Shown here: positions 6,450-40,941 of the stretch, piece by piece | Layout: each line of letters opens with the position of its first letter | How positions within the stretch are numbered: the first letter of the stretch is position 1 | NCBI RefSeq assembly: GCF_900638555.1 | Contig: NZ_LR134525.1 | Span: forward strand, 1,426,001-1,490,000 | DNA from: Neisseria meningitidis | Lineage (GTDB): Bacteria; Pseudomonadota; Gammaproteobacteria; Burkholderiales; Neisseriaceae | Direction of reading: 5' to 3' | Length of the DNA stretch: 64,000 bases | Notes under the pieces: generated by a model | Databases searched by the model: none | Seen by the model: only the letters and a program-made list of their open reading frames with translations | What the model was told of the DNA's origin: nothing | Made by a program: the position numbers and the translations under genes

Positions 6450-7949
6450 GTGTTCAAAAAATACCAATACCTCGCTTTGGCAGCACTGTGTGCCGCCTCG
6501 CTGGCAGGCTGCGACAAAGCCGGCAGCTTTTTCGGTGCGGACAAAAAAGAAGCATCTTTCGTAGAACGCATCGAACACACCAAAGACGACGGCAGCGTCA
6601 GTATGCTGCTGCCCGACTTTGTCCAACTGGTTCAAAGCGAAGGCCCGGCAGTCGTCAATATTCAGGCAGCCCCCGCCCCGCGCACCCAAAACGGCAGCGG
6701 CAATGCCGAAACCGATTCCGACCCGCTTGCCGACAGCGACCCGTTCTACGAATTTTTCAAACGCCTCGTCCCGAACATGCCCGAAATCCCCCAAGAAGAA
6801 GCAGATGACGGCGGATTGAACTTCGGTTCGGGCTTCATCATCAGCAAAGACGGCTACATCCTGACCAATACCCACGTCGTTACCGGCATGGGCAGTATCA
6901 AAGTCCTGCTCAACGACAAGCGCGAATATACCGCCAAACTCATCGGTTCGGATGTCCAATCCGATGTCGCCCTTCTGAAAATCGACGCAACGGAAGAGCT
7001 GCCCGTCGTCAAAATCGGCAATCCCAAAGATTTGAAACCGGGCGAATGGGTCGCCGCCATCGGCGCGCCCTTCGGCTTCGACAACAGCGTGACCGCCGGC
7101 ATCGTGTCCGCCAAAGGCAGAAGCCTGCCCAACGAAAGCTACACACCCTTCATCCAAACCGACGTTGCCATCAATCCGGGCAACTCCGGCGGTCCGCTGT
7201 TCAACCTGAAAGGACAGGTCGTCGGCATCAATTCGCAAATATACAGCCGCAGCGGCGGATTTATGGGCATCTCCTTTGCCATCCCCATCGACGTTGCCAT
7301 GAATGTTGCCGAACAACTGAAAAACACCGGCAAAGTCCAACGCGGGCAACTGGGCGTGATTATTCAAGAAGTATCCTACGGTTTGGCACAGTCGTTCGGT
7401 CTGGATAAAGCCGGCGGCGCATTGATTACCAAAATCCTTCCCGGCAGCCCCGCAGAACGTGCCGGCCTGCAGGCGGGCGACATCGTCCTCAGCCTCGACG
7501 GCGGAGAAATACGTTCTTCCGGCGACCTTCCCGTTATGGTCGGCGCCATTACGCCGGGAAAAGAAGTCAGCCTCGGCGTATGGCGCAAAGGCGAAGAAAT
7601 CACAATCAAAGTCAAGCTGGGCAACGCCGCCGAGCATATCGGCGCATCATCCAAAACAGATGAAGCCCCCTACACCGAACAGCAATCCGGTACGTTCTCG
7701 GTCGAATCCGCAGGCATTACCCTTCAGACACATACCGACAGCAGCGGCGGACACCTCGTCGTCGTACGGGTTTCCGACGCGGCAGAACGCGCAGGCTTGA
7801 GGCGCGGCGACGAAATTCTTGCCGTCGGGCAAGTCCCCGTCAATGACGAAGCCGGTTTCCGCAAAGCTATGGACAAGGCAGGCAAAAACGTCCCCCTGCT
7901 GATCATGCGCCGTGGCAACACGCTGTTTATCGCATTAAACCTGCAATAA
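6450..7949 (+). CDS. DegP/MucD-like periplasmic serine protease, predicted lipoprotein
   Basis: This 499-residue protein is an HtrA-family protease that degrades misfolded envelope proteins. The catalytic triad is visible: His in LTNTHVVTG, Asp in SDVALLKID, and Ser in NPGNSGGPLF. Two PDZ domains follow (about residues 300-390 and 405-498). The N-terminus ends in a lipobox, LAGC at residues 18-21, so the mature protein should be lipid-anchored, which is less common than the soluble DegP form. The start is GTG at 6450 after an AAAGGA-type ribosome site. It corresponds to the htrA/mucD gene of meningococci. Confidence 0.92.
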   Translation: MFKKYQYLALAALCAASLAGCDKAGSFFGADKKEASFVERIEHTKDDGSVSMLLPDFVQLVQSEGPAVVNIQAAPAPRTQNGSGNAETDSDPLADSDPFYEFFKRLVPNMPEIPQEEADDGGLNFGSGFIISKDGYILTNTHVVTGMGSIKVLLNDKREYTAKLIGSDVQSDVALLKIDATEELPVVKIGNPKDLKPGEWVAAIGAPFGFDNSVTAGIVSAKGRSLPNESYTPFIQTDVAINPGNSGGPLFNLKGQVVGINSQIYSRSGGFMGISFAIPIDVAMNVAEQLKNTGKVQRGQLGVIIQEVSYGLAQSFGLDKAGGALITKILPGSPAERAGLQAGDIVLSLDGGEIRSSGDLPVMVGAITPGKEVSLGVWRKGEEITIKVKLGNAAEHIGASSKTDEAPYTEQQSGTFSVESAGITLQTHTDSSGGHLVVVRVSDAAERAGLRRGDEILAVGQVPVNDEAGFRKAMDKAGKNVPLLIMRRGNTLFIALNLQ

Positions 7950-7984
7950 CACACATAATTTAACCAAAATATTTTTTAAATGAT

Positions 7985-8018
7985 AAAATGCCCGTCAATA
8001 CCGATTAACGGGCATTTT
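7985..8018 (+). terminator. Intrinsic terminator after the HtrA protease gene
   Basis: The inverted repeat AAAATGCCCGT...ACGGGCATTTT forms a strong stem with flanking A and T tracts, 35 bp past the protease stop. It is not a DUS pair. Confidence 0.85.
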
Positions 8019-16189: not shown

Positions 16190-16508
16190 TTATCCTAAAG
16201 ACATTTTCCTATCTGCTGATTCCACCGTTTCCTTTCTGTGTGCCGCCATAATTTTTATGATAGACAAGCCATTCAAGTTTGCATTGACTGCTTTTTCATT
16301 GGCAATATCCAAATGGCTGGTCGCTTCATCTAAAAATAGGATTTTCGGTTCGCAATATAAGGCCCGCGCCAATACGATGCGTTGTTTTTGTCCGCCTGAC
16401 AGTGCGCTGCCCATATCGCCGATTAAGGTTTCATAGCCCATAGGCATGGCGGAGATTTCTTCGTGAATCATAGCAAGGCAGGCGCAATGTTCGATTTTTC
16501 CTCTATCC
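16190..16508 (-). pseudogene. CvaB-type bacteriocin ABC exporter, C-terminal ATPase remnant
   Basis: The minus strand encodes about the last 105 residues of an ABC ATPase: the switch region MPMGYETLIGDMG, the signature LSGGQKQR, Walker B ILFLDEATSHLD and the H-loop AAHRKET. MPMGYxTLxGDMGxALSGGQ is the form seen in CvaB-type exporters of double-glycine peptides. Walker A, the membrane domain and the peptidase are absent, because the reading is cut by an IS remnant near 16510. The matching N-terminal peptidase piece lies on the same strand at 36539-36691, so both are probably the ends of one gene split by the TPS island. Confidence 0.8.
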
Positions 16509-16518
16509 GGTTCTGTAT

Positions 16519-16690
16519 CGAAAAAACAAGGGGCTGTACTAGATTAGCCCTAAATCCCACACCAATCCCGCAGGATTTTAAGCTGTTGAGACGGTGTGCC
16601 GAAGTTAAATCGAAATTCGCATTCTTTCAAGAACAGCGGGAAAGATTTGCAATCGATTCCGTTGTATTTTCGCAAGACACGTTTAGTCTA
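16519..16690. mobile_element. Remnant of an insertion sequence
   Basis: The stretch begins GGGGCTGTACTAGATTAG, an IS-like terminal sequence, and reads without a complete transposase to about 16690, where TAGTCTAG occurs. The interior resembles the tail of a neisserial transposase gene, but I cannot name the element with certainty (an IS5-type element such as IS1301 is possible). It separates the ABC exporter remnant from the first TPS-associated gene and may mark the island edge. Confidence 0.45.
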
Positions 16691-28593: not shown

Positions 28594-31500
28594 TTATTCT
28601 GGGTGAATGTTTGTAATTCTTCCTGTATTTACATCAAAATATGATCTAAATTTGATTCCGTCAAAGGTTTCTGAGAATTGAATGACATTTTTTCTTTCCG
28701 ATATTGATTTAGTTCTTTCATTTTGAGCAATTTTAGAGGCTTTTGAATATCCTTGTGAAGCAGCATTTTGAGCCATTTGAAGTATTTTATCATCAGAAAA
28801 TTTTTTAGGATTATAAACAGTTTTTATACTTGAAATTTCCTTAAATCCACCATCAGGTTTACCTGTCCTGTCTAGTGTAGGAATCTCATATTTAATTCGG
28901 GTAATGCCTTCAATATCAGTTTGGGTTTCAGATTTTACGCGTCCTCCTCGTGAATTTAGTTCTGCCATAAAATTGGTGCGGTTATGGGCTCCTTTAATGC
29001 CCTGTTTTTGACTAAAACCATCAGCATTTGCCAGATGTCTTTTTAGGTTTGTATCGAAACTGATGCCTTCCGGGTATTTGACATTAGTAATAGGTGTATT
29101 TTGTTTTACAAACCCTCTTGGTATTGGAATGAATCTAGGATTAACTCCTGAAATAAGTGTATAACCTTGGTCGGACATCCATTCGGATAAAGGCTTTGTA
29201 TTGCCCGATTGAAGCCAAGATTTAGCAGCAGTATTCAAATGATAAGACTGTAAAGCCAAATCTGCTTGGGTGTAAGATTTGCTGAATAATTTATACCATT
29301 CATCATCTTTACCAATTAGACCTGCTTCCCAAGATGAATGAAGGCTTCTACTATCGATCAAATGTTGTTTTCTGATTGTTCTACATTCAGTACTACGGGA
29401 TATATCCGTACATATTGCAATCGAAGCAGCAAGTCTTTTATCAGCAACATTTTGATACTTTTTTACAGTATTTTTTCTGCACAGTTGAGGATTATTCTGT
29501 TTGGCGCATGCAGTCATTTCGTTATCAAATTCTCTACCCTCTTTGTCGCTAAGCTGATTATTTTTCACCGCTACCTCAGCCGCATTCGCCGCCGCATTTA
29601 CATCGCCGCCGACCACACCGCTTACCGTACCGGCAACCAGTTTGCTGTATGCCAAAATCTGTTCGCGTTCTTTAGCTGTCAAAGTGTCAGGATTTTTGCC
29701 GTTTGTCAAAGCCTCCCCGACTATCTCGCCCACAGCCGCACCTATCGCACCATCCTGACACTTGCCCTTATTCGCCGCCGCTGCCGCACAGCCCGCTATG
29801 GCATGGGCAATCTTGTGGACTATGTAGTGCTGATCCAACTGTTTGATTTTACTGGCTGCTTCTCCATGCGCGGTATTGACCAAAGCCGCAAGGATATTCG
29901 CTTCCAGATTGTCTTTCAGGCTGCCGCCGTTGACAGCGGTATTAATCAGTGCGGCACTGCCCGCATTGGCTAGGTTGACGGTCAGGTTGTTGATCCACTG
30001 CTTATCGCTGACATTGTTCAGTGCCGAAGCGCCGATTTTGTCGGCTACGCCTGCGGTAGCGGCGGCAACCACCAGATTTTTCACCGTGCTGCTTCTGCCC
30101 AGCTCTTTCAGGGTTTTGCCGACATCGCCTTTGTTGTTGATGAACGATACGGAAGCCTGGCTGGCCAAAGAGGCGAATGCTGCATCGGTTGCGGCGGCGG
30201 CCGCACCGTTTAATCCCAATACGGCTCCGGTTCCTGCGCCTGAGGTGACCACGGTAACGGCCAGTGCGATAATCGCCGCACCTGCTTCGGTTAAGCCCTC
30301 CTGTTTGTAGTCCCATCTGTCGTAAGCAAGCTGCACCTGATTCCAGTTGATGTTTTTCGCTACTTGGAGCTGTTTCAGATAGGCATACTCGGGCTGTTTG
30401 GACAGCTTTTCGATTTCGGTTTTCAGATTGCCTTTCGGAATGTCGACGATATAGCCGCCGGGTGCGGACAATTTGGGCGGAGTAGGGCTTTCGAAGCTGG
30501 GCAGTTTTAGCGTTTCGATAGTGCTGCCGCGTCCGGCCTGTTTCTGCCATACGGTTGAGTTGGTTTCTAATTTTTCTTCCGACTGGATACGGTTCACAAT
30601 GCCTTTGAGGATAATTTTCGCATCGACACGGGCTTTTTCGCCTACACCTGCCTGAATGTCGGCACCGGCCAGCGTGGTTTTGAATTCGGTACCTTCGAGC
30701 ACGGTATCCCAGCCTGAACGGGTGGCTGCAGTTTGGGCGACGACGCGGACAGGCAATTTGGTTTCGTTCAGTTCGTTTTTACTGTAATTGCTCTTACCTA
30801 CCTTGATGCCGATAAAGCGGCGGCTTTTTTGGACATCCAACTCGTGCTTGTGGATGCCTTCTTCTGCCAGCAGTTGCAGCTCTTCACCCGCAACCAGGGT
30901 AACTTTACCTGCAGGGGCATTGAAGCGGGTGGTATTAGCTTCGATGTTGCCGCCTGCCTGAAGCGTGATACCGTTGGCGGTCAGCTCGACGGGGGCTGGC
31001 ATAATCAGGTGGTCGCGGGTGCTGGTAAACTTGGTTTTTCTGATGATTTTGCCGCTTTTACCTTTGGTTTTTAAGAAGGTATAGGCATCGTTTTGTCCAG
31101 CCTCCAGTACAATATCACTATGGGCTTTGATGTCTATGCTGCCTGAGGGAGCTTTGATTTCGGATGCACCGATAATAATACGTGCATCATCGAGTGCCGC
31201 AGCTGCATGAATACTTACCCCCGTACGTCCGGTCAAACGTGAAGGCTTGTTCAGAGCAGCTTTGTCGTAGTGACTCTTGTAGGTGGGCTTGCCAATTTCA
31301 TATTGGTCGGTTATGCCGTCAATCAGAATAGCAGCCGCCTCTGAATCTGCTGCCTTTGGCAATACGCCTGCGGCGTGAAGGTTCAGTTTTTTGGAAGCGG
31401 TAATATCGGAACCGCTGATTTCGATGCCTTGTGCGGAAATCAAGTCAATATTTTGTGCAGAAAGCTTGGCTTGCAGGTATTCTTTGCCTTTGGGTTTTTT

Positions 31501-34500
31501 ACCTTTAACTTCCTTGTTGATGGCTTGAATATAGAAAGCGAGACGGTCGCGTTCTTCTTGCAGGGTTGGAATCAGCTTGCTTTTAGGCGAGCTTTTTTTC
31601 AACTGCGCAATCTGCTGTTCCAATTCTTTGGATTTTTGGTTGAGTTCAGCCGCTTTTTGTGTAGGAAAATAATTGCTGAATGAGTTGTTTACGGCTTCGA
31701 TATTCAACTTGCCTTTGGTGGTGGCGACAACCAAGTTTTTACCGGCTGTAATTTTAGAACCTCTTAAATCTGTTTCTCCTGTAACCAGACGGATATTGCC
31801 TTTTGCTTCCAATGAGGAAACTTGAGCACTAGGCGCACCTGCATTTCCTCCTTTTGCAGACAACAGCAATTTTCCGCCTGTTTTGATGCTCAGGTCGGTA
31901 TGCGCACTGATGCGGTTGGCAGGTTCGATGGTTAATGTGCCGCTACCTGCTTCAATATTCAGCCGTCCGGCCAATGGTTTTAATTCGGCATTATCTTCCA
32001 AAGTTTTGGTCGAAACGGTACTCCAATTGATGTTGCCGCGCTTGACTAGGGCGGTACCGGCAGTAAGGTTGATTGCACCCGCTCTCAGCGTGGTGTTGTC
32101 GGCAATTTGGGAATAGCGCGCATTGAGTGCCAATACACCGTTAGCCACCAGCTTGTTGGCAGAAGGCAGTTTGTCGTTTTGCCAAATCTGGCTGCCGGTA
32201 ATGCTTAGATGACGGTGTGCGTAGGCATCTACTTGGTTGAGCGTTACCCGCTCGTGTTGTGCATTAAGATGCGTATTATGGGTAGACTCCAGCTTGGTAT
32301 TTTCTATGCTCAATGCCCGGTCGGAATGAATGTTCAATGCCCCGCTTTTGGCATGGACGTTAAGGTTTTTTAAGTCGGCATTACCACCGTTGTTTTTGAT
32401 GCTGATGTGTTTTCCGTTGATTGAATTGCGTTGTTTTCCGTCACCAAGCTGAATACCGTTGCCGGCAACCAACGTAATATCTCCTGAAGATGAAGTGATA
32501 TTGGTATTGTCTGCTTTCAGACGGCCTTTACCAACCGATCCTGCATTGACATCGGCCTTGGCTGTCAGGGTATTGTGACCGGTAAAGTCGGCATTACCGT
32601 TGGCCAATAAGGATACATGACCGTCTGCAGAAACAGCATGAAGGCCGTCTGAAACGATATTGCCCTGCAATGCGGTGGTTTCGAGAGCCTTGGCTGCGTT
32701 CAGCTTGGTATTGCGAAGCTGAATATTGCCTTTGGCTGCCTGAATGTGCAGATTACCCGAGTTGGTACGCAGATTGGTATTGGTAACATTCAGCGAGCCT
32801 GCCTCCACACCCATGTCTTTTGAGGCAGTGAGGGTTTTACTGGTGCCGGTAATATGGGCAGCGTTATCCGATTTCAAATGGATGCTGGCGGCAGACAAAT
32901 CTTTATCAACATTCAAATTCAGATCTTTACCTGTATGAACATACAGATTGCCGGGAGTATTCAGATTGGTAGTTTTGGCAGTAATGTTATCGTCTGCCAG
33001 TAAAGCAAGCTGCTTGCCGCCCTTGATACTGCCTCCGTTTAAGCGGATATCGGAGGTAACTGTTGAAGCTTCCAAAGAAAGCGGTTTGCCTGCTTCGATG
33101 TGTGCGGTGTCTTTGGCATCTATTACGGCGGAACTGCTGATGGTGCCGTTGGATAATACGGTAACATCTGCCCCGGTAATGCGTGTGTTATTGCCTAATT
33201 CGGCGTTGCCTTTGCTGGAACTGTATACGGTAGTGCCAGTCTGAATACTGGCCTCCTTGATGACGGTACGGCCGCCGGTCGACAGATTGGTCGAACCTTT
33301 AGCATTGTTCACATTTGCTTTGCTTTCGATAACCAAATTACGGCCGGCATTTAATACCGTAGCAGCAGGGCGGTTGCCGTTGTTTTGAACGACCGCTCCG
33401 TTACGCAAACCGATGTCCTCCCCGGTATCAATAACCAATAAGCCTTTGCTCTCTATCCGGCCGCCATTGGAGATAAATGCGCCTGCTGCGCCTGTTTCGG
33501 TGGTTTCGATGGAGAGATAAGTCGGTGATGCTTCAGTGCTGTCGGCAGTGGTGGCGATGCGGCCGCTGTTTTCAATACGGCCGGAGGAAGTAACGATCAA
33601 TTGCTTGGCCGCTTCGAGTGTGCCCGCATTTTTGACACCCACGCCTTTTTCATTGGCAATCAGGGTAATGCTGTCGGCGTACATACCACCCAATGCGGCA
33701 GTATCGAGGGCAACGGTCGGTTTCGTACCTGCTGCCGTTCCTGCGCTGATTTCACCGCTGGCGTAATCTACTTTCTGTGCGCCGGTCGAAACCGCCAGGT
33801 TTTTACCCTGCAATTTCCCCTGCAAAGCAACCGCACGGGCAAGCACTTCGGTGTAATCGGCTCCGCCTTTGTCGTTCCAACCTGACGTACCGACGGTCAA
33901 TGTGCCTTGGCGCACGTCAAATCCCGTCAAGGCACCGTCTTTGCCGATTTGAGGCGTACCGGTGGTTAAGATACCGCGGCCGACGTTTTTAAAGCCGCCG
34001 CCATTAACGGTAATGCCGTTGGGGTTGGCAATAATCACGTCGGCCTTTTGACCGCCTACGGTAACGATGCCGTTGAGTTTGCTAGCCGTACCGCGTACCT
34101 CGTTCAAAATCAATTGCGCACTGCCTTTGACCAGAAACGGATTATTGTTACGGTCGTTGTTTAACACTGCCCCTTTGTTGTCAACATCAAACTGCGTATA
34201 GCGGTTGTGGCTCAATCCGCGTCCATTCGGAGTTTGGATATTCACCAAGGGGGCACCAGTGTTGGTTTTAAGGATAACGACCTGCTGGTTTTTAGGTGCT
34301 GATTTGTCGGTGGTAATTTGGGCATGGGCAGGCAATACCATACTCAGGGAAACCAAAGAGCAGACCAAGGTTTTAAGGGTGGTTTTGAGTTTGCCGCAAA
34401 GGTCGCCTGAAGTTTTCAGTGAAACAGAAACCGAACTGCCTGCCTGTTTACCTTTGCCCTGGCTGTTGGCAGTTTCGGCTACTGCAACCATGGTGCTGTG

Positions 34501-34539
34501 CTTTTTACTAAAGATAATGCGATGTAAACCTTTATTCAT
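28594..34539 (-). CDS. tpsA: TpsA/HrpA (FhaB-like) exported toxin of two-partner secretion
   Basis: This 1981-residue protein has an extended signal peptide (MNKGLHRIIFSKKHSTMVAV ... AHA, cleavage after about residue 73), a TPS domain with the ANPNGI motif (about residues 74-320), a long beta-helical shaft of repeats, a pretoxin region with a VKNN (VENN-type) motif at about 1658, and a 320-residue tip. The end of the tip (KRHLANADGF...KGAHNRTNF...RSYFDVNTGRITNIHP) resembles CdiA-type C-terminal nucleases, probably RNases; the exact class is unsettled. It follows tpsB by 109 bp on the same strand and is followed by its immunity gene. It is likely exported by TpsB and acts on neighbouring bacteria; meningococcal TpsA is also linked to adhesion. 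Confidence 0.9.
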   Translation of the reverse strand: MNKGLHRIIFSKKHSTMVAVAETANSQGKGKQAGSSVSVSLKTSGDLCGKLKTTLKTLVCSLVSLSMVLPAHAQITTDKSAPKNQQVVILKTNTGAPLVNIQTPNGRGLSHNRYTQFDVDNKGAVLNNDRNNNPFLVKGSAQLILNEVRGTASKLNGIVTVGGQKADVIIANPNGITVNGGGFKNVGRGILTTGTPQIGKDGALTGFDVRQGTLTVGTSGWNDKGGADYTEVLARAVALQGKLQGKNLAVSTGAQKVDYASGEISAGTAAGTKPTVALDTAALGGMYADSITLIANEKGVGVKNAGTLEAAKQLIVTSSGRIENSGRIATTADSTEASPTYLSIETTETGAAGAFISNGGRIESKGLLVIDTGEDIGLRNGAVVQNNGNRPAATVLNAGRNLVIESKANVNNAKGSTNLSTGGRTVIKEASIQTGTTVYSSSKGNAELGNNTRITGADVTVLSNGTISSSAVIDAKDTAHIEAGKPLSLEASTVTSDIRLNGGSIKGGKQLALLADDNITAKTTNLNTPGNLYVHTGKDLNLNVDKDLSAASIHLKSDNAAHITGTSKTLTASKDMGVEAGSLNVTNTNLRTNSGNLHIQAAKGNIQLRNTKLNAAKALETTALQGNIVSDGLHAVSADGHVSLLANGNADFTGHNTLTAKADVNAGSVGKGRLKADNTNITSSSGDITLVAGNGIQLGDGKQRNSINGKHISIKNNGGNADLKNLNVHAKSGALNIHSDRALSIENTKLESTHNTHLNAQHERVTLNQVDAYAHRHLSITGSQIWQNDKLPSANKLVANGVLALNARYSQIADNTTLRAGAINLTAGTALVKRGNINWSTVSTKTLEDNAELKPLAGRLNIEAGSGTLTIEPANRISAHTDLSIKTGGKLLLSAKGGNAGAPSAQVSSLEAKGNIRLVTGETDLRGSKITAGKNLVVATTKGKLNIEAVNNSFSNYFPTQKAAELNQKSKELEQQIAQLKKSSPKSKLIPTLQEERDRLAFYIQAINKEVKGKKPKGKEYLQAKLSAQNIDLISAQGIEISGSDITASKKLNLHAAGVLPKAADSEAAAILIDGITDQYEIGKPTYKSHYDKAALNKPSRLTGRTGVSIHAAAALDDARIIIGASEIKAPSGSIDIKAHSDIVLEAGQNDAYTFLKTKGKSGKIIRKTKFTSTRDHLIMPAPVELTANGITLQAGGNIEANTTRFNAPAGKVTLVAGEELQLLAEEGIHKHELDVQKSRRFIGIKVGKSNYSKNELNETKLPVRVVAQTAATRSGWDTVLEGTEFKTTLAGADIQAGVGEKARVDAKIILKGIVNRIQSEEKLETNSTVWQKQAGRGSTIETLKLPSFESPTPPKLSAPGGYIVDIPKGNLKTEIEKLSKQPEYAYLKQLQVAKNINWNQVQLAYDRWDYKQEGLTEAGAAIIALAVTVVTSGAGTGAVLGLNGAAAAATDAAFASLASQASVSFINNKGDVGKTLKELGRSSTVKNLVVAAATAGVADKIGASALNNVSDKQWINNLTVNLANAGSAALINTAVNGGSLKDNLEANILAALVNTAHGEAASKIKQLDQHYIVHKIAHAIAGCAAAAANKGKCQDGAIGAAVGEIVGEALTNGKNPDTLTAKEREQILAYSKLVAGTVSGVVGGDVNAAANAAEVAVKNNQLSDKEGREFDNEMTACAKQNNPQLCRKNTVKKYQNVADKRLAASIAICTDISRSTECRTIRKQHLIDSRSLHSSWEAGLIGKDDEWYKLFSKSYTQADLALQSYHLNTAAKSWLQSGNTKPLSEWMSDQGYTLISGVNPRFIPIPRGFVKQNTPITNVKYPEGISFDTNLKRHLANADGFSQKQGIKGAHNRTNFMAELNSRGGRVKSETQTDIEGITRIKYEIPTLDRTGKPDGGFKEISSIKTVYNPKKFSDDKILQMAQNAASQGYSKASKIAQNERTKSISERKNVIQFSETFDGIKFRSYFDVNTGRITNIHPE

Positions 34540-34648: not shown

Positions 34649-36391
34649 TTAGAAACTGTAATTCAAGTTGAAGCCGTAAACGGTGTTGGCCGTCTGAAAA
34701 CCTTCGGGCTTGTGCAGCGGCTTGCCGGCAAATAAGTCATAAGCAAATATACCGCCTACTTTATGGCTGCCTCTGAAGCCGGCCACTGCACCCGCCAGCC
34801 GCTTGCCCGAGGCATATTGGGCACTTTCGCCCGATACCCGACCATAGTCCGCGCCGAGATAGAATTGATGGCGCGGATGGAAATGCCAGCCCAAAGTGTT
34901 CTGCCAGTAGAAACCACGCTCTCCGGAAAGGCTCTGTTCACCGTCAAATCCTCGAACGGTGTAGCGGCTGCCGATAGACAACTTGTCTTGGGCAACCAAA
35001 GGCGTTTTGTTCCATTGTGCATGGATAGCGGTTTCGTAGGAAAACTGCTGTTTGCCCAACATAAACGGGGCCGCTGCATCCAATCCGGCGGTTATGATTT
35101 TCATACGGGATGTGCCTGGAATAGTACCGCCGCCGTTTTCTTCCGGTGCGGGCATACTTTGGCGCATACCGGTACCCCGTTTGTAAGATAACTTGCCGTC
35201 CAGTTGCCAGCGGTTGAGGTAAGCACGGTGGCGCAATTCGGCTTCCCAGCCTGCAGAGCGGCGGCGTTGCACTTCGATTTCGGCATCGTCGATGTATTTA
35301 TAGGTTTGGCGTGTCCATAATTTCATTCCGACTGAAGTTTTATGAAACCTGTTACGCCAAAGCATGCGCTCGGCGGCCAGGCTGCTCTGATATTGTTTGC
35401 CGTTGTAATCGTAATTGACGGAATAGCCTTCGGTTGCTTCGTGGTAACGATGTCCATTGTGATTAAAAGAAAACAGCCATTTTTTTACGGGCACCGAATA
35501 ATGCACGCTGTAACTTCTGGATCCGCTTTCAGTTTCCGTACCGGTGGCATCAGTCAAGTCCGTTTTGTGCACCAAACCGCGTCCATATGAAACATAAAAC
35601 AAATCGCTTAAGCCCAAAGGGTTATCGAACGATAAAGCGACATTTCCTTGATATTTGCCGGTCGTTTTGCCGCCCGCATCATCTATACCGATACTGAACC
35701 GTATGGGTTTATTCTGCTGCCATTTGATCTGTAAATCGCTTTTGCCTTCTTCTTCGGACGGTATAATCTGAATATCTGTTTTAACACTCGACAAACGACG
35801 CAGGTTTTCCAAGCCCTGCTCTACATCGCGAAGATTGAGAATTTTGTTCCTATATAAGGGAAATTTGTTATTGAATGTACTAATACTGCCTTCGGCAGAC
35901 TTCCCATCCCGTTTTTCTTCATAGCGGATATCCCCTATTTCGCCTGCTGATACCCGTAATTTCAGAATTCCCGAATCCATATTCTGTGGTTGGATAATAG
36001 CTTGGGAAGTGAGGTAGCCACGCACGATCAGTATCTGTTGCGCAGCTTTTTGTAGCCTGCTCAAATTATTGGAACCTAAACACATCCCAGTTTTAAAAGC
36101 TGTTTCTTTCATGAGCACAGAAGGAAGAAAAGAAAATTTGCGCGCCGTCTTATCATCTAAACTAATGTAATTTACCCGAGTACACGGTGTTTCATCTTCA
36201 CTCAGGACATAATTGTTCTTCTCCAATGGTTGCTCGAAACGGACATTTGCATCAGTTAACAATTCAGCATCTATGTGCTGCTGACGCTGCATGGAACGGA
36301 TAAGTTCTGCATCGTTTTCATCGGCAGCTAAGGTTTTAAGGGGTATGACAGCCAGGATAACCAACAGACATGGAGCAGGAAAAAATTTCAT
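34649..36391 (-). CDS. tpsB: TpsB/HrpB outer-membrane transporter (FhaC/ShlB family)
   Basis: This 580-residue protein starts with a signal peptide (MKFFPAPCLLVILAVIPLKT ... AAD), followed by a POTRA-containing periplasmic part (about residues 70-220) and a C-terminal 16-strand beta-barrel. The barrel has the family GSRYTVRGFDGEQSLSGERG motif of the conserved loop/plug region and ends in an aromatic residue (NLNYSF). It exports TpsA across the outer membrane. It is the first gene of the island operon; 68 bp separate its start from an IS1106-like mini-element that could carry the promoter. Confidence 0.93.
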   Translation of the reverse strand: MKFFPAPCLLVILAVIPLKTLAADENDAELIRSMQRQQHIDAELLTDANVRFEQPLEKNNYVLSEDETPCTRVNYISLDDKTARKFSFLPSVLMKETAFKTGMCLGSNNLSRLQKAAQQILIVRGYLTSQAIIQPQNMDSGILKLRVSAGEIGDIRYEEKRDGKSAEGSISTFNNKFPLYRNKILNLRDVEQGLENLRRLSSVKTDIQIIPSEEEGKSDLQIKWQQNKPIRFSIGIDDAGGKTTGKYQGNVALSFDNPLGLSDLFYVSYGRGLVHKTDLTDATGTETESGSRSYSVHYSVPVKKWLFSFNHNGHRYHEATEGYSVNYDYNGKQYQSSLAAERMLWRNRFHKTSVGMKLWTRQTYKYIDDAEIEVQRRRSAGWEAELRHRAYLNRWQLDGKLSYKRGTGMRQSMPAPEENGGGTIPGTSRMKIITAGLDAAAPFMLGKQQFSYETAIHAQWNKTPLVAQDKLSIGSRYTVRGFDGEQSLSGERGFYWQNTLGWHFHPRHQFYLGADYGRVSGESAQYASGKRLAGAVAGFRGSHKVGGIFAYDLFAGKPLHKPEGFQTANTVYGFNLNYSF

Positions 36392-36460: not shown

Positions 36461-36533
36461 GAGACCTTTGCAAAATTCCCCAAAATTCCCACCAAGACAT
36501 TTAGGGGATTTTGGGGAATTTTGCAAAGGTCTC
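36461..36533. mobile_element. 73-bp mini-element with IS1106-like inverted ends
   Basis: GAGACCTTTGCAAAATTCCC at one end is matched by its exact inverse at the other, leaving only a 31-bp centre. It cannot encode anything. It sits exactly where the CvaB-type exporter reading frame ends and the TPS island begins, so it marks one junction. Confidence 0.8.
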
Positions 36534-36538
36534 GGACA

Positions 36539-36691
36539 GTATTTTGAACGCAGTGCGCGTAAATCCGTATGGAAACCATGAAATCCCGCCACAGCCGCCA
36601 GACATGCCAAGCCGCATTCTGATATTTCTGTTTGCAGGATAACAGGCAGCTTTTTCTTTAAGCCCAAAGACAGGTTTTGCAGATGGGGCAT
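36539..36691 (-). pseudogene. CvaB-type bacteriocin ABC exporter, N-terminal C39 peptidase remnant
   Basis: The frame from 36691 reads MPHLQNLSLGLKKKLPVILQ then TEISECGLACLAAVAGFHG, the catalytic cysteine motif of C39 peptidases that remove double-glycine leaders during export. After about 51 residues the homology stops at the mini-element, and 28 unrelated residues follow to a stop at 36452. The ATPase end of such a gene lies at 16190-16508 on the same strand. The piece cannot be functional. Confidence 0.82.
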
Positions 36692-36789
36692 AGATTTCCT
36701 TTTTGAAAAATAGGGATTAGGAAGTTGGATGTATTTTAGAAAGGCCGCCTGAAAAGGTTTCAGACGACCTTTTGCGACTAGCTGCTATT

Positions 36790-36960
36790 TTATTTAAAGC
36801 TTTTCTCTAACAAACGAGCTAATATTTTTCCTGTAATAAAACAGATAAAAAACAGCATCCAATACGTCAGATTGGAAAAATCGGTCGTATAGAGAATCAA
36901 CATATAAAGAAGCAGCATGATGCCGAGTGCGATGAATTGATAATGTTTGGCAAACATCAT
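36790..36960 (-). CDS. 56-residue two-helix membrane protein, probable bacteriocin immunity
   Basis: An intact ATG-to-TAA frame starts MMFAKHYQFIALGIMLLLYM and has two hydrophobic helices joined by a short polar loop, then a basic tail (LARLLEKSFK). A strong GAGGAGG ribosome site precedes it. It begins 14 bp after the end of precursor peptide 2. Small two-helix proteins directly after the structural gene are typical immunity proteins of class II microcins. It seems to have stayed intact while the peptide decayed. Confidence 0.65.
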   Translation of the reverse strand: MMFAKHYQFIALGIMLLLYMLILYTTDFSNLTYWMLFFICFITGKILARLLEKSFK

Positions 36961-36974
36961 GACCTCCTCAACTA

Positions 36975-37405
36975 TTAAGGCAAACCGCCTGAATATTCTC
37001 GTTCAATCGTTTCGGCAATTTCCCTATAACGTCGATACCATGACCAGTCGAAATTTTCAATGGCATGGCTCGCAAACGTACCAAATTCAGGCATCCCTAT
37101 GCGGCTACCTGCTAAAGCTCCGATTGTAGCTCCCCAACCAGGCGGATTACTGAACGTATTGTTTGGCAATCCTAAAGATTTATCAGGATTTCCCGTATCG
37201 TTAAGCCCTGCAGATTCGCAAATTTCGCAATAATATGAGCTTTGTTACGCATTACCTGAGCCTCCGACCCAAGTCATTTCATGAACACATATAGTGGATT
37301 AAATTTAAATCAGGACAAGGCGACGAAGCCGCAGACAGTACAAATAGTACGGCAAGGCGAGGCAACGCTGTACTGGTTTTTGTTAATCCACTATAAAACT
37401 CTCAT
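36975..37405 (-). pseudogene. Double-glycine microcin precursor 2, broken by a Correia element and a stop
   Basis: The ATG at 37405, behind AAGGAG, gives MRVL and is then interrupted by a Correia element (37290-37395). Removing the element with one copy of the TA restores MRVLCVHEMTWVGG, a double-glycine leader, followed by SGNA, an in-frame TAA, and then an open frame QSSYYCEICESAGLNDTGNP through GWGATIGALAGSRIGMPEFG to the TAA at 36975. The mature peptide would be about 94 residues with a glycine/alanine-rich helix. Both lesions prevent expression. Confidence 0.7.
37290..37395. repeat. Correia element, short class (106 bp), inside a leader peptide
   Basis: The element begins TATAGTGGATTAAATTTAA and ends TTTTTGTTAATCCACTATA, without the internal block of the long class. 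It is inserted after codon 4 of microcin precursor 2, with TA duplicated. Confidence 0.92.
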
Positions 37406-37586
37406 TTTGAAACTCCTTGTATCGTTAATCAAACAATCAAAAGGGCAGATGCCCTATCCTTGCTTTTACAGACGGAGTGCCTGTAAAAGAGGATGGTTTC
37501 AGGCAGTTTTGAAGTTTGTGTTTTTTATTGTCTTCTGGTCGTCTGAAAAGGTTTCAGACAACTTCTTTATCTTTCAGCCTCAAGTC

Positions 37587-38862
37587 TTACAGTTTGCCCG
37601 ACATACTATAAATCAGCTCCAATACCCATTCGTACAGCCGCCGTTTCTCGTGCAGGATGTCTGCTTCCAACGTCATGCCGATTTGCAGCGGTTTTTCCTC
37701 ACCGTATGCAGTGATGGTTGGTTTGTCGGGTTTTATTTTCACGAGATAAACAGGTTCGTTGCTCTTCGCCAAATCGGAGGATACCATGCCCAATCCCGAC
37801 AATTCCTGTCTGCCCAGTGCCGTTTTTGCTACTGATACGACACTGCCGGAAGCAAGCCCGAATTTTTGATAGGGATATGCCTGATAACGTAGGACAACCT
37901 TGTCTTTCGGCTTGATAAAGCCTGCTGCACTGCTGGGGATATATAGATGGGCATATAGCTCGGTACGTTCGGGAACAATGCTCAAGAGCAGTTTGGAAGG
38001 ATCAACCTGCTGTCCGACTTCGACGTTCGGTATTGCTATATAACCCGACCGTCCTGCACGGATGATTTGTTCAGAGCGCATTTCAAAATCCAAAACTTCT
38101 TGAGAAATATCGGCAATGGTGCGTTCAAGCCAGCTTTGTTCTGTCTCATGCCGCTTGGGGGAGGCTGGCCAATGTCAGATTCTGCGTGCGGATTTCCTGA
38201 AGCAGCCCGACTTCTTCTCGGCGGTAGGCATCAAGTTTGGCTTTCTGCTCTAAAAGCTCTGCCTTGACATTCATCATTTCTTGTTTTGGCACTGCATCAT
38301 TGGCGGATAGGAAACGATATTTCTGCAACATTTCTTCCGCAAGTCTAATGCGCCTTTTCTGACCGTCTATCTGTTGCGAAATATGGAGTTCCTGGTTTTC
38401 CAAACGTTCGACAGTTGCTTTAAGGCTGCGCGTTTCATTCTCGTGTATCAGCTTCAGACGACCCAGTTCCTGTTCTGCCAACGTTTTCTTCAAAACTGCC
38501 TCCGTTTTCAACTGCTGCTGCACGCTACCTCCTGCGCCGAAACGTGAGGTCGAAAGCGCAAATAGCTTGTCGCCAGCCTTAACCTTTTCTCCATCTTCCA
38601 CGAATTTCGCTGTAATTGTCCCCGTATCCGGTGCATACACCCTGATTACGCCCGATGCAGGTAAAATTTGTCCCTCCACTGTTGTCTTTCGCGTATAGTT
38701 ACCAAATATCAAAAACAGGATAATCAATAACGCAGATATCGATGCAAATGTCGTCCATAGGGAAAATGACAACGGTCGTGTCAGAATCACTTTACCCGTC
38801 AGGCTGGTTTGGCGGGCAACGGCGACTTCGGGACGGAAGAAGGGTTGCTTGGGTCTATTCAT
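37587..38862 (-). pseudogene. HlyD/CvaA-type membrane fusion protein, frameshifted
   Basis: The frame from 38862 has a cytoplasmic start, one membrane helix (ALLIILFLIFGN), the lipoyl-like IRVYAPDTGTITAKFVEDGE segment and a long coiled coil, then stops after SLPQAA near 38146. A second frame continues PKRHETEQSWLERTIADISQ and the C-terminal beta part to MSGKL at 37587. The shift falls in a C run (CTCCCCCAAG) near 38155; one C fewer would restore SLPKRHETE. In colicin V systems this protein links the ABC exporter to TolC. The full protein would have about 424 residues. Confidence 0.82.
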
Positions 38863-38922
38863 AAAATTGAAGTTAAGAAAGTTTCAGACGACCCCTAGAG
38901 ATTGTCTGGACGATGAGAAATA

Positions 38923-39275
38923 TCAGCAGTAATCTGTACCGTCAGTGTAGCCGTTTCCTGATTTATCTGCTTTTGTTGCGGGAGCAGTTAATCCATGTTC
39001 AATCTCAAAGATTGGTCTTCCGTTATAAGGAGGTGCATTAACGGCATCATTTACCCAATTACGAGTCACATTGTATACACCATTTGCACCAGCAGCACCG
39101 TAAGCATTTTTCGGCAGATAATAAACTGCCGCTGCGGCAGCAGGTATTGCAACCAAATCCCCCATGTGGGACCTCCTTTGGTTGTGGCAGCATTAGCTAC
39201 ATTTCCAGCTATATTGTCTGTTACAGGACCTCCCCCTGAAACCAGCTTCAATTCATGAAGTTGAAGTTCAATCAT
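38923..39275 (-). pseudogene. Double-glycine microcin precursor 1, frameshifted
   Basis: The ATG at 39275, behind AAAAGGAG, gives the 15-residue leader MIELQLHELKLVSGG, the same length and pattern as the colicin V leader. The mature part begins GPVTDNIAGNVANAATTKGG. At CACATGGGGGATTTGG (near 39160) the run has five G; six would join GPTW to GDLVAIPAAAAAVYY and continue in frame to GNGYTDGTDYC at 38923, a 102-residue mature peptide. As it stands the frame leaves after about 37 residues. The start overlaps the stop of the preceding small membrane protein. Confidence 0.75.
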
Positions 39276-39507
39276 TTTTATACTCCTTTTCTTGGTTGGT
39301 ATTCCTAAAAATTCGGCTAACAAAAACATATGGCAGATATATTGAAAAAAAATTCAAAGTACCCTGAATAAAATTCAAATTCCAACTATATTTGTTAATG
39401 TAGTCGAGAAGAAACATATCTGATAAAAAATATAGCACTTGATAACAAGCTATTACTAATATTACGAAAAATGTAAATTGCTTCCAGTTTTTCATAGAAT
39501 CCCTCAC
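39268..39507 (-). CDS. 79-residue two-helix membrane protein, microcin locus
   Basis: This small protein has two hydrophobic segments (FTFFVILVIACYQVLYFL and FFSIYLPYVFV) and a charged C-terminus. It overlaps the end of the JmjC gene by four bases and the start of microcin precursor 1 by eight, so the three are translationally coupled. It could be the immunity protein of precursor 1 or an accessory membrane protein. The family is not recognised. Confidence 0.62.
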   Translation of the reverse strand: MRDSMKNWKQFTFFVILVIACYQVLYFLSDMFLLDYINKYSWNLNFIQGTLNFFSIYLPYVFVSRIFRNTNQEKEYKND

Positions 39508-40658
39508 AAAATTTCCAGAAAATCTAACTCTATCAACTGATAAATCAACTTCCTAACTTCTTCATATTTTCCCTGATTGAAGTTAACCAGTAGATTTTTC
39601 AACAATAACGGTTCATTCTTACCGATGTGTTCTAACACTTTTTTCCCCAACTCATCTACGCTTATCTTCATCCCATTCCCAATCAAATATCCCTTTTCCA
39701 ACGTATCCAAATTATTGGCATTTAATCTCAACCTGACGTCGTCTGAAAGCGGAGTAGCGTTGGGATTCGCGAACTGTTCGAGATGAAAAGCGGTATCGGT
39801 ACGTTCTTTGCCGAGGAAGTCTTCACTGAAGGCTTCGTAATTGACGGGGTCGGCAATCATGGCAGCAATTTGTGCGGCAGTATCGTTGATACGCGTCCTA
39901 TCTTGCTCCCAGTCTGAGAAACTGTGGCGCAGACTTTCTATGGTGGGGAATTTCTTCATTAGCCACTCGAGGTAATTATAGCCGTTGGGCGGAAAGGTAC
40001 CGACAGCGAGGTGGAAGGTTTCACAGCCGAGCGGGATAGGTCTGTGCCACCAACCGCGCGGGATGTAGAGGACATCACCTGCTTCAAGGATAATATCCAT
40101 ATCGATATGTTCAGGAATGGAAATATCAGTATCTTTAGTCTGTTGCATATACAATGGCATAGGGAAATCAGGGGCAGTAAGTTGCCAACGTTTCTTGCCG
40201 AAAAGCTGGATGGCATACACATCTCGGATGTCCCAATGGTTTTTATAAGATTCGTCGCTGCCAAAAGCAAGATATCCACTAACAATAGTATGTGCGCCGG
40301 CAAAGCGGGCGACTTGACGGGCGATATGGTCTGAAAACGGCTCGTTGTTAATATGGTTATAGACTAACGACGCACCATTCTTCATATGTTCGTAGATAAC
40401 GGATTTAATAAAACGGTAGCGAGTTTTGCCCAAATCGTCGAAACTTTCGACGTATTCTTCTTTAGGAACGATTGCGCCTTTTTTACGCAGATGAAACAGC
40501 GGTGCGGTTGGGTCTGCTCGTTGGTATATCTCGTTGATATCTTTCCAAGATGCGGATTCGAGATTCCGAACCGCTCCTTTAAAGAGCTTGGGCTTTTGAT
40601 ACAGATAAGTCTGTCGGAACGTTTTAGGACTAATGCCGAAGTCGAGATGGATGCTCAT
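39504..40658 (-). CDS. JmjC/cupin-4 oxygenase-like protein, head of the microcin operon
   Basis: This 384-residue protein has a cupin/JmjC fold with the iron site H-x-D in NHWDIRDVY and a distal histidine in PRGWWHRPIP, plus the FGKKRWQLTAP segment typical of RoxA/MINA-like 2-oxoglutarate oxygenases. A C-terminal winged-helix-like part follows (about residues 270-384). These enzymes hydroxylate protein side chains. It overlaps the next gene and heads an operon of microcin genes, so modification of the peptide, rather than of a ribosomal protein, is a reasonable hypothesis. It is intact. Confidence 0.75.
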   Translation of the reverse strand: MSIHLDFGISPKTFRQTYLYQKPKLFKGAVRNLESASWKDINEIYQRADPTAPLFHLRKKGAIVPKEEYVESFDDLGKTRYRFIKSVIYEHMKNGASLVYNHINNEPFSDHIARQVARFAGAHTIVSGYLAFGSDESYKNHWDIRDVYAIQLFGKKRWQLTAPDFPMPLYMQQTKDTDISIPEHIDMDIILEAGDVLYIPRGWWHRPIPLGCETFHLAVGTFPPNGYNYLEWLMKKFPTIESLRHSFSDWEQDRTRINDTAAQIAAMIADPVNYEAFSEDFLGKERTDTAFHLEQFANPNATPLSDDVRLRLNANNLDTLEKGYLIGNGMKISVDELGKKVLEHIGKNEPLLLKNLLVNFNQGKYEEVRKLIYQLIELDFLEIL

Positions 40659-40763: not shown

Positions 40764-40869
40764 TATAGTGGATTAACAAAAATCAGGAAAAGGCGACGAA
40801 ACCGCAGACAGTACAAATAGTACGGCAAGGCGAGGCAACGCTGTACTGGTTTAAATTTAATCCACTATA
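40764..40869. repeat. Correia element, short class (106 bp)
   Basis: It begins TATAGTGGATTAACAAAAA and ends TTTAAATTTAATCCACTATA, lacking the internal block. It lies upstream of the JmjC gene (start at 40658) and may supply or disturb that promoter. Confidence 0.92.
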
Positions 40870-40941
40870 AAAATTTGTTTTGTTTCCAAACGAAAAAAAG
40901 CGGTTTGTTTTTTGTTGTTAACATTTTTATTGTAATTAAAT

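Follow-up and report, generated by a model that had tools for sequence, protein, structure and literature searches.

A decayed microcin operon in Neisseria meningitidis and the pairing of its JmjC oxygenase with a C-terminal tag shared by unrelated precursors

The window analysed here was a 64,000-nucleotide stretch of Neisseria meningitidis DNA (positions 1426001-1490000 of a 2.19-Mb single-contig genome). A decayed operon for class II (double-glycine, GG) microcins lay at 36536-40658 on its minus strand, in seven co-directed pieces that comprised a JmjC oxygenase gene, genes for two small membrane proteins, two precursors and a HlyD-type protein, and a gene for an ABC exporter with a C39 peptidase domain (C39-ABC). 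The operon type itself was already known. The new result is the pairing of the oxygenase with a C-terminal precursor tag, approximately D-x-x-G-N-x-Y..DG-x-[DN]-Y, which was shared in Neisseria by precursors with unrelated cores. These comparisons suggest that the operon is probably, by a modest balance of the evidence, the remnant of a microcin system whose dedicated JmjC oxygenase hydroxylated the precursor tag before export.

The tag was present in a precursor of all eight JmjC-bearing loci; leader and tag shared one frame in six of them and lay in broken frames in the other two. A leader-bearing tagged precursor was found in none of eight JmjC-less sister loci (eight of eight against none of eight: Fisher's one-sided test, 8e-5, kinship ignored). 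For the counts, the strict pattern GN[NDGSTA][YF] was required in a leader-bearing open reading frame (ORF) or, for the window and the gonococcus, in the broken frames. The JmjC-less set consisted of L026 and L032-L037, in which HlyD and C39-ABC were accompanied by GG precursors that lacked the strict tag, together with a second locus of the gonococcus (L091), the tag status of which was judged from its listed ORFs, outside the strict-pattern scan. G004 was included among the JmjC-bearing loci; the 18 kb read there showed no exporter, and the HlyD frame of G004 had 327 codons. A looser pattern, G[NAT]x[YF] within 24 residues of the end, matched one ORF each in L037 and L091 and extra ORFs in L024, L025 and L031. 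Because it reached JmjC-less loci and more ORFs, the strict pattern was used for the counts. The remnant loci of G014, G036, G009, G007, G016, G023, G002 and G045 were left out of the eight-versus-eight comparison; the tag lay beside JmjC fragments in G014, G036 and G009, and no strict tag was found in a precursor of G007, G002 or G045.

The tag end was DKSGNGYTDGTDYC in the broken frames of the window and the gonococcus, and, for example, DKSGNNYDGTNY, SRDGNNYDGTDY, DPAGNNYCDDGTDY and DKTGNGYSDGCDYC in other JmjC-bearing loci. Fifteen tagged precursors gave 105 pairs, 93 of which had cores less than 35% identical, and the tags were more alike than the cores in all 93. The mean identities over these pairs were 61% for the tags, 23% for the cores and 49% for the leaders. 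Moreover, the strict pattern occurred in the last 24 residues of 14 of the 15 precursors, against 0.12 expected by shuffling. The fifteen were chosen for having the tag; hence, these figures describe how sharp it is, not how frequent.

The pieces of the operon in the window and its flanks were as follows.

40766-40870 (approximate), strand not assigned: second Correia-type copy, upstream of JmjC; the gonococcal DNA alignment breaks at 40765-40879
39504-40658, minus strand: JmjC oxygenase gene, 384 residues, intact; RoxA/YcfD-like fold, metal ligands H141, D143 and H205 kept
39268-39507, minus strand: 79-residue membrane protein, intact, overlapping the stop of the JmjC gene; putative immunity protein for precursor 1
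39159-39275, minus strand: precursor 1, double-glycine leader piece (..LVSGG); relative in frame in L025 (4488-4841)
38926-39162, minus strand: precursor 1, second-frame piece with the C-terminal tag DKSGNGYTDGTDYC as its end
38146-38862, minus strand: HlyD/McbA-type membrane-fusion protein, N-terminal piece
37590-38174, minus strand: HlyD/McbA-type membrane-fusion protein, C-terminal piece in another frame; PF13437, E=2.6e-10; 98% to gonococcal HlyD 235-424
37295-37405, strand not assigned: Correia-type repeat within precursor 2; the gonococcal DNA alignment breaks at 37399
36978-37298, minus strand: precursor 2, GG motif piece (37298-37248) and body (37244-36978), without the tag
36790-36960, minus strand: 56-residue membrane ORF, where relatives carry small membrane ORFs
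36536-36691, minus strand: C39 peptidase-ABC exporter, first 52 codons; PF03412, E=7.5e-7; 86.5% to the gonococcal exporter
16193-16528, minus strand: C39-ABC exporter, last 112 codons; 98% to gonococcal exporter 425-536; PF00005
14913-16169, plus strand: yihY-like gene, which marks the original downstream border and flanks the exporter in the gonococcus too (95%)

All seven pieces were located where the initial annotation had placed them as a decayed microcin operon. It had counted five parts in need of repair; the count was instead three intact pieces (the JmjC oxygenase and the 79- and 56-residue membrane proteins) and four broken ones (precursor 1, precursor 2, HlyD and the C39 exporter). 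The label colicin V-like fitted the export machinery, and the nearest characterised systems were Acinetobacter mcaABCD and Moraxella mcbABCI. The double-glycine leader was present (MIELQLHELKLVSGG in the window leader piece). The two HlyD pieces (38862-37590) jointly covered the whole of the intact 424-residue gonococcal protein at 96% and 98% identity. Precursor 2 was interrupted by a stop and by a repeat that, like the copy upstream of JmjC, we take to be of the Correia type; the hairpin fold of this repeat was weak (z -1.15). The body of precursor 2 had a counterpart in L027, where an ORF in the corresponding place of the operon was 47.5% identical to it over 40 residues (E=1e-5). Every piece except the 56-residue ORF had a homologue in the same place in another Neisseria, which is more than chance; the 56-residue ORF had none in the relatives' loci compared. 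The 79-residue ORF had matches in 7 of 46 Neisseria genomes (own included), two of them just 31% identical, and the comparison of G007 with the window gave a ratio of nonsynonymous to synonymous substitution rates (dN/dS) of 0.13 at dS 0.52. A phage origin was considered and rejected, since comparison of the HlyD piece with 50,697 phage records gave no match (E up to 1e-5). As read from the DNA, the weapon is dead in the window genome, with both precursors and HlyD broken and the exporter split by an inserted island.

The decay evident from these sequences is recent and partly independent in the sister species. Precursor 1 was broken in both the window and the gonococcus, at different places, and the gonococcal exporter had a stop after the C39 part. 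In G009, where JmjC was fragmented, the exporter end, a precursor piece with the tag and the 79-residue gene were retained; G007 kept the 79-residue gene beside a JmjC fragment. In addition, the second precursors and adjoining small membrane ORFs of the gonococcus (L023 7460-7807) and the window (37298-36978) had no detectable similarity, as if the cargo at this position had been swapped between them.

The exporter had been described as a C39 end piece. The C39 start was indeed at 36691-36536; the gene was not simply truncated, since its last 112 codons lay 20 kb away. Gonococcal DNA (L023, N. gonorrhoeae DSM 9188) matched the window on both sides, with L023 8295-9883 replaced by window 16529-36534, and the exporter end at 16528-16193 was followed by yihY, as in the gonococcus. 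Hence, a two-partner-secretion (TPS) island of the FhaB/FhaC type sits inside the microcin exporter gene.

16529-36534, strand not assigned: inserted TPS island in place of the middle part of the exporter gene; among its genes are TpsB (34649-36391) and TpsA (28594-34539, EndoU tip)
36461-36533, strand not assigned: inverted repeat of 73 bp at the island border, 30-nt arms 97%; relatives at many places in the genome

The island encoded TpsB (ShlB and POTRA domains) and TpsA (TPS, DUF637, PT-VENN and EndoU domains), and further TpsA-like ORFs were judged by eye. The other border carried a 172-bp sequence, which we take to resemble the end of an insertion sequence; the genome contained 139 to 156 bases of it at 8 other places (91-99% identity) and a shorter part of it at one more. 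One competition system (TpsAB, with its EndoU-tipped TpsA) has thus displaced another by lying inside its exporter gene.

An intact version had been suggested as possible in other Neisseria and was found there. Matches of the HlyD piece came from 16 of the 46 Neisseria genomes, counting its own; two of them were 24-residue remnants. From the other 15 genomes, 16 stretches were scanned for operon genes. Complete, open and co-directed operons with in-frame precursors and C39-ABC occurred in five of the 46 genomes (G043, G028, G012, G038 and G034; loci L025, L027, L028, L030 and L031). Their open stretches were at least 384 codons for JmjC, at least 428 for HlyD and at least 694 for C39-ABC, together with leader-plus-tag precursors. 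The whole exporter in L025 had PF03412, PF00664 and PF00005, and an in-frame 117-residue relative of precursor 1 was present in the protein database (P0132, uncultured Neisseria sp.). No intact copy of this particular operon was found in another meningococcal strain, the collections holding one genome per species. Open stretches of at least 150 codons were listed in eight operon loci; they were JmjC, HlyD, the exporter, JmjC fragments (L025), precursor frames (L027 and L028) and, in L028, a frame inside the exporter; none of them was an additional long enzyme ORF. In L025 (3712-5762), two extra copies of the C-terminal part of JmjC were present, and precursor-like cassettes followed each copy, as though the JmjC ends served as homology arms for cassette exchange.

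The JmjC protein had PF08007 (JmjC_2, E=4e-30) and PF20514 with a RoxA-like winged helix, its metal ligands (HxD...H) were invariant in 116 of 116 alignment rows, and its fold matched YcfD. An ordinary ribosomal oxygenase (RoxA) that stands beside the operon by chance would have this domain content. Furthermore, some JmjC match (E up to 1e-3) was found in 218 of 399 genomes of the order; most of those listed were weak and were presumably RoxA-like. However, the identity to the YcfD and NO66 structures was just 13-18%. PF08007 exceeded the family cut-off in 8 of 46 Neisseria genomes (five more fell below it), all eight genes lay within ~6 kb upstream of this HlyD, and 38 genomes had none above it, indicating that it is no housekeeping gene in Neisseria. 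The same neighbours recurred in Acinetobacter and in two Burkholderiales loci, and a chance neighbour is very improbable. Operon-type JmjC (E up to 1e-20) was found in 10 of 83 genomes of the family, all ten within the genus, in 3 of 398 genomes of a phylum sample (own, G009 and G176), and in 1 of 369 genomes of a class sample, its own, with the Moraxella homologue as the query. Four genomes of the order outside the genus had a JmjC match at E below 1e-40. The window genome had one JmjC_2 gene; many N. meningitidis sequences (among P0040-P0103) were of a second JmjC protein ~53% identical to that of the window.

The tags of Acinetobacter and Burkholderiales were seen after the tag had been defined on Neisseria. 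Ten Acinetobacter plasmid records had a JmjC match, and four were read. The intact one (L052, a conjugative plasmid) carried a 61-residue precursor ending AGNDYCEDGGNY, followed by JmjC, HlyD and C39-ABC, and its JmjC protein (the McaB homologue) was 45% identical to that of the window. L103 carried this tagged peptide too, but there ISAba10 followed a partial JmjC gene; L104 and L053 were partial. An unannotated ORF for a 76-residue membrane protein lay at L052 4290-4520 (A. baumannii pMC23.1), just upstream of the Mcc17978-type microcin gene; from its position, it may be a candidate immunity gene of this microcin. Five Burkholderiales loci were read, four with JmjC at E below 1e-40 and the weaker G319. 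G176 had JmjC, HlyD and C39-ABC with a precursor ending DDKSGANYQDGSNYQK. Two further records stood apart: a Janthinobacterium plasmid locus (L102) with HlyD, C39-ABC and a GG peptide had neither JmjC nor the tag and was not counted, and a Paraburkholderia record (L101) ended inside HlyD, with neither JmjC nor the tag in it.

In the proposed mechanism, one 2-oxoglutarate/Fe(II) JmjC oxygenase, encoded by the first gene of the operon, would serve several precursors with unrelated cores and a common tag. The enzyme would bind the precursor, perhaps via its winged-helix domain, and a conserved Asp, Asn or Tyr of the tag would be hydroxylated before export. The C39 domain would then cut the leader during export by the C39-ABC exporter and HlyD adaptor, and the small membrane proteins beside the precursors would protect the producer. 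A role of the JmjC protein as a modifying enzyme, suggested in the initial annotation, is plausible; the authors of the Mcc17978 study assign its homologue, the cupin-like McaB, to immunity instead, since mcaB alone protected an Acinetobacter deletion mutant (PMC10333792). In that case, the JmjC protein would modify a target in the producer, for example a ribosomal protein, and thereby shield it from tag-bearing microcins; the gene would survive operon decay because protection remains an advantage. Ribosomal oxygenases have this fold, and the JmjC gene is intact in the window although the weapon is dead, with dN/dS of 0.36 against the gonococcus. However, this ratio says little, since argC (0.30) and the broken HlyD pieces (0.21-0.24) gave similar values in the same comparison. 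G009 and G007 keep the 79-residue membrane gene with JmjC in fragments, which suits the membrane protein better as the immunity factor, several different cores occur per JmjC gene, and the 76-residue membrane ORF of L052 may be the real immunity gene in Acinetobacter. An immunity role of the JmjC protein is accordingly the weaker candidate, possible but rather doubtful. Tailoring was ranked above it for three reasons: a single enzyme is matched with one tag on many cores, two genomes with a broken JmjC gene keep the 79-residue gene, and BipG is a known case of a JmjC enzyme that tailors a ribosomal peptide.

Several points weigh against tailoring of the tag. The strongest is the published protection by McaB (PMC10333792). 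None of these peptides has been observed in a modified form. The tag was defined on the same Neisseria loci that were then counted, and in five JmjC-less loci (L026, L032, L033, L034 and L035) the strict pattern stood at the end of a single leaderless frame; the end in L033 (..DGNDYD) resembled the tag. Tagless precursors occurred in JmjC-bearing loci (the second precursors of the gonococcus and the window, and L025 7828), indicating that two kinds of cargo share the operon. Outside Neisseria, a clear tag was found in two kinds of place, the Acinetobacter plasmids and G176. G181 had JmjC, HlyD and C39-ABC with just an Asp/Gly-rich precursor end, and G247 had JmjC and HlyD with a weak Asp/Gly-rich end and no exporter in the 17 kb read. 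In G221 the JmjC protein was 37% identical, HlyD and ABC matches lay at a distance of 4 to 8 kb, and there was no tagged precursor; none was found in the G319 locus read either.

A literature search, with subscription papers mostly outside it, yielded no account of JmjC-linked microcin operons of this kind in the texts available. In-frame precursors, the exporter, candidate immunity genes and a dedicated oxygenase are available in five of 46 Neisseria genomes, and the sequence tag predicts which small ORFs are cargo. The pairing also reopens the role of McaB in Acinetobacter.

Among the characterised systems, Mcc17978 (mcaABCD) was alike in its microcin with a GG/GA leader, cupin/JmjC protein, HlyD and C39-ABC exporter. 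The peptide on L052 fitted the leader described for Mcc17978 (GA at 15-16) and bore the tag; we infer from gene order and leader that it is the microcin of strain ATCC 17978. The two systems differed in that the microcin gene lies upstream of JmjC in Acinetobacter and the precursors downstream in Neisseria, and in one short microcin (61 residues) versus several of ~100-130 residues. Mcc17978 is reported to act on Acinetobacter and E. coli via PiuA and Fiu and to be induced by low iron; the term "C-terminal" was not found in its main text (PMC10333792). The mcbABCI system of Moraxella catarrhalis (PMC2761928; pLQ510) was alike in McbA (HlyD, 41%) and McbB (C39-ABC, 54-56% to the gonococcal proteins), and in a JmjC homologue upstream of mcbA (60% over 265 residues). 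It differed in that JmjC was broken in two frames (L054 39-1420) and McbC lacked the tag; a tag-like remnant, DNQDKSDNNYSD (at 1322), lay upstream of mcbA. Neither "jmjc" nor "cupin" occurs in that paper (PMC2761928).

The second gonococcal locus, L091 (N. gonorrhoeae NZ_CP119140.1), had HlyD at 62% and C39-ABC at 65-71% identity, with no JmjC and no tag. Presumably, it is the NMB0097/NMB0098 locus. Its intact HlyD (421 residues) and C39-ABC (695 residues) lay beside a 78-residue GG peptide (ORF pair 7542-7775 / 7772-7999). This peptide resembled Moraxella McbC (25%, E 3e-6, the same KKW end), and an overlapping small lipoprotein-like ORF stood in place of McbI, to which its likeness was weak (E 0.011). 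These two ORFs are candidates for a gonocin/meningocin and its immunity gene. NMB0097/NMB0098 have been described as the meningocin exporter (PMC9263626).

The gonococcal nap island is alike in its double-glycine peptides and in genus. Nap peptides are reported to share GG motifs and a C39 peptidase and to promote autolysis without antibacterial activity (PMC11798529), so the peptides of the present operon might be autolysis or signalling peptides rather than bacteriocins. However, where the window locus has HlyD and C39-ABC, the nap island encodes a FapF homologue and a C39 peptidase that stands alone, and it was rejected as a counterpart. Moreover, the nearest studied operons, those of McbC and Mcc17978, are reported to kill or inhibit competitors (PMC2761928, PMC10333792). 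An autolytic or signalling role is improbable, and an antibacterial action of the Neisseria peptides appears the better expectation. Three stand-alone C39 peptidase frames occurred elsewhere in the window genome (L001, L002 and L003), L001 with a long GG-type peptide frame nearby.

The class IIb siderophore microcins (MccE492 and MccH47) have a serine-rich, modified C-terminal end made with several glucosyl-catechol enzymes. They were alike in that unrelated toxic cores share a C-terminal end, and their uptake by catecholate receptors is also reported for Mcc17978. The present operons fall outside class IIb, with a tag end rich in Asp, Asn, Tyr and Gly and no further long enzyme ORF in the loci checked. 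The reported uptake of Mcc17978 by catecholate receptors makes an iron-binding tag an attractive idea: the hydroxylated tag would be an iron ligand, an encoded siderophore mimic that carries unrelated cores through iron-siderophore receptors. We regard this as speculative and unlikely. The best Fur-box match upstream of JmjC agreed with the consensus at 12 of 19 positions, against a plus-strand window maximum of 14, so nothing stood above background, and the Acinetobacter upstream region also reached just 12. If the idea were true, the tag would be a second, independent solution to the catechol-siderophore attachment of class IIb, common to Neisseria, Moraxellaceae and some Burkholderiales, and would flag missing toxins in genomes.

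Precedent for a JmjC protein in a ribosomal-peptide operon came from BipG and PbsQ (PMC12707348, PMC12257519). BipG, from a biphenomycin-type ribosomally synthesized and post-translationally modified peptide (RiPP) pathway, has been described as the ornithine hydroxylase acting on a precursor peptide (PMC12707348), and bacterial PF08007 homologues are noted in RiPP-like contexts (PMC12710340). BipG and PbsQ belong to a Radical-SAM/MNIO pathway and differ from the present operon in machinery and substrates; what they share with it is the JmjC protein.

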